Position numbers and translations under genes: made by a program. Shown piece after piece: positions 2,858 through 3,986 of a DNA stretch of 43,786 nucleotides. Numbering within the stretch: the first letter of the stretch is position 1; each line of letters begins with the position of its first letter. Below the pieces are notes generated by a model, which was not told the DNA's origin, searched no databases, and saw only the letters and a program-made list of their open reading frames with translations. Source of the stretch: Candidatus Pelagibacter sp. TMED118 (lineage in GTDB: Bacteria; Pseudomonadota; Alphaproteobacteria; Pelagibacterales; Pelagibacteraceae); NCBI GenBank assembly GCA_002170205.2, contig NHFT02000002.1:48946-92731 (forward strand), given 5' to 3'.

Positions 2858-2934
2858 TGGTTGCGGGGGACGGATTTGAACCGCCGACCTCAAGGTTATG
2901 AGCCTTGCGAGCTACCAGGCTGCTCCACCCCGCG
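2858..2934 (-). tRNA. Initiator tRNA-fMet (CAT anticodon)
   Basis: A 77-nt cloverleaf read on the minus strand, with acceptor CGCGGGG pairing with CCCCGC, a C1:A72 mismatch (the hallmark of bacterial initiators), anticodon CAT and an encoded 3' ACCA. The anticodon stem is CAAGG/CCTTG, so the usual three consecutive G:C pairs of initiators are here A:U, G:C, G:C; relaxed versions of this rule are known in some Alphaproteobacteria. It begins 4 nt after the rpsU stop and is very probably cut out of the rpsU transcript by RNase P. Confidence 0.97.
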
Positions 2935-2938
2935 ATAA

Positions 2939-3133
2939 TTAAATCCTATTTTTAAGCTTTCTTAGCTTTTTTACTCTTTTAATGTTTTCTTGAAGAATTC
3001 TTTTTTTTTTTTCTGATGGTTTTTCGTAATTATTTTTTAGTTTAATTATTTTAAAAAAACCATCCCTTTGTAGTTTTCTTTTTAAAACCCTCAAAGCTTG
3101 CTCAACATTATTATCTTTAACTTCTATTTTAAT
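2939..3133 (-). CDS. rpsU: 30S ribosomal protein S21, probable ATT start
   Basis: S21 sits near the 3' end of 16S rRNA on the small subunit and takes part in mRNA initiation. The core DNNVEQALRVLKRKLQRDGFF and the YEKPSEKKKR segment match alphaproteobacterial S21. No ATG or GTG is available before an upstream in-frame TGA. The only conventional start, a TTG at 3145, overlaps the GGAGG ribosome-binding site itself. Aligning to the family consensus (M-x-V-x-V-x-D-N-N-V) places the first residue at ATT 3133-3131, 5 nt after GGAGG, giving 64 residues. The product is very basic. It is the last protein gene of the minus-strand run and lies just before the initiator tRNA. Confidence 0.88.
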   Translation of the reverse strand: MKIEVKDNNVEQALRVLKRKLQRDGFFKIIKLKNNYEKPSEKKKRILQENIKRVKKLRKLKNRI

Positions 3134-3138
3134 AATTT

Positions 3139-3143
3139 CCTCC
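3139..3143 (-). promoter_or_regulatory. Strong GGAGG Shine-Dalgarno that sets the rpsU start
   Basis: On the minus strand GGAGG lies 5 nt before the ATT at 3133-3131 and is one of the few full Shine-Dalgarno sites in this window, where most starts have none because genes overlap. Its spacing decides against the TTG at 3145 and supports ATT initiation. Since S21 helps position the anti-Shine-Dalgarno, a strong site plus a weak start codon on its own mRNA suggests feedback control (inference). Confidence 0.65.
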
Positions 3144-3198
3144 AAAAAAACGACTAAGTATCACTTTAAGAATAATTTGTCTATTAATATTCTGCAAT

Positions 3199-3759
3199 TT
3201 AGTTATTTTTATCTTTAATTTTTTTTTCTCTTATTAGTCTTTTCTCAGCTTTTTCTATTGCGTTAAGAAGATCTTTTTGAGAAAACAATCCCATAGCAAC
3301 AGGGTCTTTAGAATTTAAACTATTGTAGTTCCAATAATTTTTGTTTCTAATTGAAGAGACTGAATTTTTTGTAATCCCAACAAGTTTAGCTATTTGAGAG
3401 TCCTTAAGTATTGAATGTTGTTTTAATAACCATAATGCAGCATCAGGTTTATCTTGTCTTTTAGATAAAGGTATATATCTTTTTATCTTCTTTTCAACAG
3501 GCTCGATATTTAGTTCATTATTTTTAAGTTCTAATGGTCTATGTTCATCATTTGAACATAGATTAATTTCCTCTCTTGTTAATTGTCCTGACATTATTGG
3601 ATTATAAGCAACAATACCTTTGCCCACCTCCCCATCTGCTATACCTTGAATTTCAACTTCATGCATTTTGCAAAAATTTGCAATTTGTTTAAATGTAAGA
3701 GTTGTATTCTCTACAAGCCACAAAGCAGTGGCCATAGGCATTAAAGGTGTCTTCGACAT
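3199..3759 (-). CDS. trcR: Cell cycle transcriptional regulator TrcR (DUF1013 family)
   Basis: 186 residues matching the alphaproteobacteria-specific DUF1013 family. The N-terminal block with LMPMATALWLVENT and the VEIQGIADGEVGKGI segment are typical. A second region (about residues 100-140, including DAALWLLKQH and DSQIAKLVGITKNSV) looks like a helix-turn-helix. In Caulobacter-type bacteria the family is tied to cell-cycle transcription; its role in a streamlined marine cell is not known to me. Its ATG overlaps the rpmE stop by one base (TAATG), so it is translationally coupled to L31. A 65-bp gap to the rpsU start follows, the largest in this part of the run and possibly the site of an extra rpsU promoter. 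Confidence 0.85.
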   Translation of the reverse strand: MSKTPLMPMATALWLVENTTLTFKQIANFCKMHEVEIQGIADGEVGKGIVAYNPIMSGQLTREEINLCSNDEHRPLELKNNELNIEPVEKKIKRYIPLSKRQDKPDAALWLLKQHSILKDSQIAKLVGITKNSVSSIRNKNYWNYNSLNSKDPVAMGLFSQKDLLNAIEKAEKRLIREKKIKDKNN

Positions 3760-3986
3760 TATTTGTTCTCTGATCTAAAATTTTTGAATTTTTTGTTAAA
3801 CTTACTCACTCTACCTTTGTCTAAAAGTTTCTGTTTGCCACCTGTCCACGCGGAGTGTGATTTTGGGTCTATTTCAAGTTTTAGAATATCTCCTTCAGAA
3901 CCCCAAGTTGACATAGTTTCGAACTGTGTACCATCTGTCATTTCGACTTTTATTTTGTGATAGTTTGGATGTAGGTTTTTTTTCAT
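3759..3986 (-). CDS. rpmE: 50S ribosomal protein L31
   Basis: 75 residues beginning [19 protein letters not shown], with the central HSAWTGGKQ motif and a basic C-terminal tail as in L31. There are no cysteines, so this is the zinc-independent (C-minus) form. It is a large-subunit protein contributing to an intersubunit bridge. It lies between suhB (35 bp upstream) and trcR (1-base overlap). Confidence 0.95.

Follow-up and report, generated by a model that had tools for sequence, protein, structure and literature searches.

Near-cognate AUU start codon and strong Shine-Dalgarno sequence of rpsU in SAR11 bacteria

Ribosomal protein bS21 is encoded by rpsU, and in the window analyzed here (the whole 43,786-nt stretch from Candidatus Pelagibacter sp. 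TMED118) the conserved region of this gene is preceded by several candidate start codons. An initial annotation placed the start at an ATT codon behind a perfect Shine-Dalgarno (SD) sequence and suggested that S21 may thereby control its own level. The locus raises two questions: where translation of rpsU begins, and what a weak start combined with a strong SD might do.

Start codon of rpsU in the window and across SAR11

The minus strand of the window reads, in order, rpmE (L31), trcR, rpsU (S21) and an initiator-type tRNA-Met (Table 1). The nearest relative of its trcR is a Pelagibacteraceae locus with 82% identity, which makes the window SAR11-type. The S21 domain is present (PF01165, 1.1e-15, 57.5 bits against a cut-off of 27), and together with TIGR00030 it bears out the assignment of the gene as rpsU. 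From position 3163 the minus strand runs TGA TAC TTA GTC GTT TTT TTG(3145) GAG GAA ATT(3136) ATT(3133) AAA ATA GAA GTT. Direct reading of these letters agrees with the initial annotation on three points: neither ATG nor GTG follows the in-frame TGA before the conserved region begins, the only TTG (3145) overlaps GGAGG (3143–3139), and ATT 3133 sits 5 nt past this GGAGG.

Table 1. Features of the rpsU locus in the window, listed in the direction of transcription
Feature	Position	Strand	Basis or conservation
rpmE (L31), start-codon control	3759..3986	-	PF01197; ATG in 170/170 readable core loci
trcR, upstream neighbour, start-codon control	3199..3759	-	PF06242; ATG in 171/171 readable core loci
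-35-like TAGACA	3178..3183	-	TRGAC[A/T] in 188/188 core loci, one at an odd distance
Extended -10-like TGA TACTTA, 17 nt after -35	3155..3163	-	T, G and T-A of -10 at 99% each; spacer 17 in 172/188
Predicted leader, ~15 nt	3134..3148	-	inferred from -10 position
TTG overlapping SD, start in public gene models, rejected here	3143..3145	-	62/120 listed homologues 68 aa, beginning ME/LE/MD here
Shine-Dalgarno GGAGG, 5 nt before ATT	3139..3143	-	172/176 ATT/ATC loci, 0/11 ATG loci; core spacing 4, 5, 6 or 9 nt
ATT start codon of rpsU	3131..3133	-	ATT/ATC in 176/188 core SAR11 loci; same codon ATG in 11, ACG in 1
rpsU, bS21	2939..3133	-	64 codons from ATT 3133 + stop TAA 2941-2939; Pfam PF01165, TIGR00030; start by conservation
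Initiator-type tRNA-Met (C1:A72)	2858..2934	-	ARAGORN, Rfam; starts 4 nt after rpsU stop

Relatives of the locus were collected from a one-genome-per-species scan, whose best 80 SAR11 loci share the same frame and include none with ATG at the start codon, and from an order-wide search, which found a match in 351 of 397 genomes; 152 loci were read from genome searches, for which divergent genomes were picked deliberately. Copies with identical 120 nt were removed before counting, as were two loci with frameshifted rpsU (L246 and L247), taken as sequence errors. The resulting core SAR11 set holds 188 distinct loci (80 from the species scan, 107 from the genome searches and the window). Further sets comprise 22 loci from a second group of the same order, provisionally labelled 'sister', and 68 loci from other Alphaproteobacteria. 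In L246 and L247, the T run at codons 25–27 counts eight T, against seven in relatives, and breaks the rpsU frame, probably through a sequence error.

Codon 1 of rpsU in the core set is ATT in 173 loci, ATC in 3, ATG in 11 and ACG in 1, and GGAGG precedes it in 169 of the 173 ATT loci, in all three ATC loci and in the ACG locus. The second group starts with ATA in 21 loci and ATC in one, and 21 of the 22 carry GGAGG. The alignment across SAR11 that the initial annotation had proposed as a check, namely of ATT, ATA or ATC together with GGAGG, comes out in its favor, and an AUU start paired with a strong SD is strongly supported (176 of 188 core loci with ATT or ATC, 172 of these with GGAGG). 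Both neighboring control genes start with ATG and lack GGAGG in every readable core locus, namely 171 for trcR (in 17 of 188 the gene is absent or its 5' end is not aligned) and 170 for rpmE (18 not readable). ATA stands at codon 1 of no core locus, while the internal isoleucine codons of the same genes comprise 551 ATT, 220 ATA and 41 ATC. As judged from these alignments, the near-cognate rpsU start is conserved in most SAR11 relatives to a degree beyond chance.

The stretch between the SD and the start measures 4 nt in 7 loci, 5 nt in 151, 6 nt in 12 and 9 nt in 3, and the codon preceding the start in the 176 ATT/ATC loci takes six forms (GTT 120, TTT 39, ATT 6, CTT 6, AAT 4 and GCT 1). Because its length varies and this codon is so free, the stretch behaves as non-coding in the alignments. 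This bears directly on public gene models, in which TTG 3145 is the real start and ATT an internal isoleucine codon. The TTG at the SD is indeed the sole canonical in-frame codon after the last stop in 117 of the 176 loci, and among 120 listed public homologues, 62 have a length of 68 aa and this codon as their start (five sequences inspected). Others occur in 13 loci; the remaining 46 contain no in-frame ATG, GTG or TTG whatsoever. The TTG is already excluded in 11 loci by a stop codon that interrupts the frame between GGAGG and ATT, after which only codons such as GTT ATT or TTT ATT are left. Furthermore, the variable SD–ATT distances break the TTG frame, ATG turns up at the ATT position instead, and the predicted transcript puts the TTG just a few nucleotides from its 5' end. 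Given the loci without a canonical in-frame codon and those with a stop after the SD, TTG 3145 was rejected as a highly improbable start, and the gene models inspected in public data misplace the start of SAR11 rpsU.

A different near-cognate start, at 3136 or at ATA 3127, is more improbable still. Both codons are close to the SD, and 181 of 188 core loci have ATA at the 3127 position; against this, the ATG and ACG variants map precisely to 3133, codon 3136 has six forms among relatives, and in the window the two candidates are spaced 2 nt and 11 nt from GGAGG. An upstream ATG or GTG start was rejected as well, the RTG triplet near the -10 being out of frame in the few loci worked by hand. An in-frame ATG 11 codons upstream occurs in 3 of the 176 loci (L225, L227 and L228), within the promoter region. 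Taken over the aligned loci, AUU at 3133 is almost certainly the start codon of SAR11 rpsU.

Covariation of start codon and Shine-Dalgarno sequence

The 11 core loci with ATG at exactly codon 1 of rpsU are informative in that none of them carries GGAGG; TTTAGAAATATTTATG and TTAAAAAAATATATG are examples of their sequences. With the SAR11 16S tail, these 11 loci pair at -1.3 kcal/mol on average and the 173 ATT loci at -12.7 kcal/mol. Of 37 genomes, 21 yielded a 16S end with CCTCC, including 6 of the 11 ATG genomes (G101, G079, G376, G283, G208 and G029); the other 16 genomes, among them the other five ATG genomes, gave no match to the 24-nt 16S-end pattern, which a divergent or missing 16S gene may explain. 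Relatives with ATG and without conserved GGAGG had been named in the initial annotation as an argument against an AUU start. Such relatives do occur, yet in only 11 of 188 core loci, and since ATG and the absence of GGAGG coincide there, they favor coupling of the two elements and are not evidence against the AUU start. The alignments indicate that the start codon and SD of rpsU appear to evolve as one unit, and because 11 core loci manage without AUU and SD, the arrangement is not indispensable.

A tree of trcR with 171 rows places the ATG loci in two neighboring clades, and the locus with ACG and GGAGG (L202) lies in one of these (support 96), beside two ATG loci. With 14 of its 168 inner branches starred, this tree gives weak resolution, and an independent-pair test on it comprised just 2 pairs, a number too small to be meaningful; the joint change to ATG with loss of the SD may represent only one or two events.

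The same rule is seen in infC, the gene of initiation factor IF3, which was found in 29 of 30 genomes and starts with GTG in 12, ATA in 9, ATT in 5 and ATG in 3. An SD 4-mer (AGGAG or GAGG) precedes 14 of 14 infC genes without a canonical start and 0 of 15 with one; the near-cognate infC starts were placed by a rule of our own, which is partly SD-guided, and independently of that rule these 14 loci are free of ATG, GTG and TTG from the last in-frame stop up to the conserved region. The nine ATA infC genes belong to nine second-group genomes, in which rpsU also starts with ATA, and the 12 genomes with GTG infC include those most like the window. In the second group (L303, L306, L308–L310, L312, L318, L319 and L322), the apparent ATA start of infC stands behind GGAG, like that of rpsU; some deep SAR11 branches (L304, L305, L307, L313 and L326) have an apparent ATT start of infC. 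Comparison between genomes establishes the start of rpsU, the conservation of this start, the lack of an SD in the core ATG loci and the recurrence of the same rule in infC.

Promoter, leader and possible control of S21 synthesis

A promoter-like element, TAGACA-17-TAnnnA with TGn, precedes rpsU and is strongly conserved in core loci (window 3155–3183). Coupling of rpsU to trcR was considered and found unlikely, given this element of its own and a gap of ~65 nt between the genes. Leaders of ribosomal protein genes can be autogenous operators that control the synthesis of their own products. SAR11 rpsU resembles such systems in being a ribosomal protein gene whose leader may control synthesis, and differs from them by the leader of only ~15 nt that the -10 position predicts, which leaves no room for a folded operator. 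Consistent with this, no Rfam leader was detected in the window at gathering scores (just two tRNAs), and a structured autogenous leader was rejected.

Downstream of rpsU, 185 core loci extend far enough to look for a tRNA-Met gene; 179 of them have one, 146 within 20 nt and most of the others at 220–260 nt. This arrangement suggests that the two genes are probably carried on one transcript. C1:A72, a mark of initiator tRNAs, was found in 178 of 179 core loci as read. In addition, A29:U41 replaces the first of the three G:C pairs of the anticodon stem in 179 of 179 core loci, and A occupies the same position in every match listed from alphaproteobacterial genomes (57 of 115, with 58 giving no pattern match).

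These features bear on the main rival to a regulatory role, in which AUU is the start but acts as a constant throttle, free of feedback. The S21 yield per transcript would simply be fixed by the weak codon together with the strong SD, the strong promoter would be needed for the initiator tRNA gene after rpsU, and in the ATG loci AUG without an SD would yield about the same amount of S21. The extended -10 promoter and the frequent proximity of tRNA-Met fit this explanation. Selection on net strength would also give ATG loci without an SD next to an ACG locus with one (L202), and compensation of weak starts by SD strength is a known general trend (PMC5622118). Such a throttle would leave the same sequences and the same conservation, and it accommodates the exchange of ATG for the SD equally well. 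However, the second group keeps ATA or ATC with an SD although no tRNA-Met was found in the 134–330 nt fetched downstream of its 22 loci, and near-cognate codons are retained where an ordinary AUG with a weak SD could have formed a simpler throttle. We regard a constant throttle as possible but rather unlikely.

We lean instead towards AUU and SD working as one unit that ties S21 synthesis to SD pairing and IF3. The near-cognate AUU would be destabilized by IF3 on the 30S subunit, while the strong SD, with 5 to 7 bp to the 16S tail, would keep the mRNA bound long enough for initiation. S21 synthesis would then need SD pairing and drop at high IF3 activity, so that S21 output would track how many 30S subunits are free and in what state, and not the mRNA level alone. 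Work described in PMC5472188 indicates that IF3 destabilizes initiation at codons outside ATG, GTG and TTG, that infC uses this for self-control, and that near-cognate starts are repressed by IF3 in E. coli and Streptomyces, including the GTC start of Streptomyces sigR. For SAR11 rpsU, we infer IF3 sensitivity, dependence on SD pairing and feedback on the S21 level. The compared sequences suggest that the weak start and strong SD together may set the amount of S21, and the self-control of S21 raised by the initial annotation is plausible in SAR11.

An alternative source of feedback would be a loop of the Bacteroidota type, in which only ribosomes lacking bS21, with a free anti-SD, read rpsU well, and AUU sharpens the dependence on the SD. 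According to PMC9976891, F. johnsoniae ribosomes without bS21 prefer the strong-SD rpsU mRNA. The complete SAR11 genome examined looks SD-poor: among its 852 called genes, GGAGG occupies the SD position before the first ATG 14 times, compared with 1 and 2 in mock windows, and an SD 4-mer of any kind is found there 136 times, compared with 39 and 62; the gene calls are crude (908 genes, 76% of the genome). In the window, none of the 43 non-overlapping ORFs with a length of 100 aa or more has GGAGG in this position. SAR11 rpsU is among the exceptions, and 74 of the 173 ATT loci pair more strongly than the -13 kcal/mol mark given for Bacteroidota, our energies coming from a different program than the source of that mark. 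By comparison, the window reaches only -10.2 kcal/mol, and rpsU of the complete genome (-11.1), although among the good ones, is not distinct from 14 other genes with GGAGG. The same rule of start and SD also governs infC, which does not encode S21, and an SD is missing altogether from the ATG loci. A loop of this type is accordingly improbable in our view, and IF3 logic seems likelier than S21-specific logic for the AUU–SD unit because infC shows the same pairing of start and SD.

Other lineages and known systems

A search of one genome for ORFs with an SD and a near-cognate start yielded 16 candidates, seven of them antisense to called genes, and only rpsU was tied to a known family. Among the 68 loci from other Alphaproteobacteria, where starts were called by a fixed rule at two codons, rpsU starts with GTG in 36, ATG in 10, TTG in 10, ATC in 5, ATA in 4 and CTG in 3. 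Eight of the 12 near-cognate calls have a canonical in-frame codon further upstream and are weaker, while L355, L366, L375 and L377 have no canonical in-frame codon after the last stop. The ATC, ATA or CTG starts are those of L185, L199, L351, L353, L355, L366, L367, L373, L375, L377, L381 and L383. In a phylum sample, rpsU of the beta/gamma type has ATG in 36 of the 37 loci that could be read, L506 being misread and L510 not found, and rpsU of the alpha type has GTG in its 8 loci. From these counts, weak rpsU starts seem to be customary in Alphaproteobacteria, with the SAR11 order as the extreme case.

Viruses carry S21 as well. Relatives of S21 were found on 57 viral contigs, and the 39 distinct ones start with ATG (22) or TTG (17), where the start is set to the first canonical codon no more than two codons away from the aligned one. 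S21 of pelagiphage HTVC008M has an ATG start, and Mosig S21 has TTG behind AGGAGG. As read by this rule, the viral S21 copies do not share the start of the host. Tentatively, these observations could be joined into an initiation-homeostasis circuit that works through start-codon choice in SAR11 and many other Alphaproteobacteria. In such a circuit rpsU, and infC in some lineages, would use AUU, AUA or AUC with an SD, IF3 and free 30S subunits would set the output of S21 and IF3, rpsU would be co-transcribed with an initiator tRNA bearing the A:U stem pair, and S21-bearing phages would escape through ATG or TTG.

Comparison with known systems reveals both likenesses and differences. The infC system, with AUU in E. 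coli, ATC in Streptomyces and autoregulation by IF3, shares with SAR11 rpsU a start of the class discriminated by IF3, an SD and a gene of the initiation machinery. The rpsU start is a codon other than ATG, GTG or TTG and has an SD at proper spacing (172 of 176 loci, 4–9 nt). The gene here is rpsU, however, and its codon is kept where that of infC varies. Streptomyces sigR, as presented in PMC5472188, likewise has a rare start for which annotation was put at a nearby upstream canonical codon; that start was shown by mutation and blotting, whereas the rpsU start of SAR11 is placed by comparison.

With the rpsU autoregulation of Flavobacteriales, as described in PMC9976891, SAR11 has in common the same gene, a strong SD and an SD-poor genome, the latter together with an intact anti-SD (SD usage in one genome, the CCTCC 16S end in 21 of 37). 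It differs in its near-cognate start, in an rpsU SD that is not the single strongest in the one genome analyzed and in its 11 ATG loci without an SD. A weak start with a strong SD also matches the compensation reported in PMC5622118, where the statistical trend concerns GUG and UUG and a change from AUG to AUU occurs once among 61,358 ancestral AUG starts. Unlike that trend, one orthologous gene keeps AUU here through most of an order. According to a review (PMC10931766), the regulation of rpsU in E. coli is still unknown. Among the open-access titles listed, none concerned an AUU start of rpsU, which does not imply its absence in print.

It is rare for a core ribosomal gene to hold a near-cognate start through most of an order, and the SAR11 bacteria that do so are very abundant in the ocean. 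With its leader of ~15 nt, SAR11 rpsU is testable, and the natural ATG forms and phage copies can serve as controls. The gene also offers a natural example of apparent joint evolution of start codon and SD.
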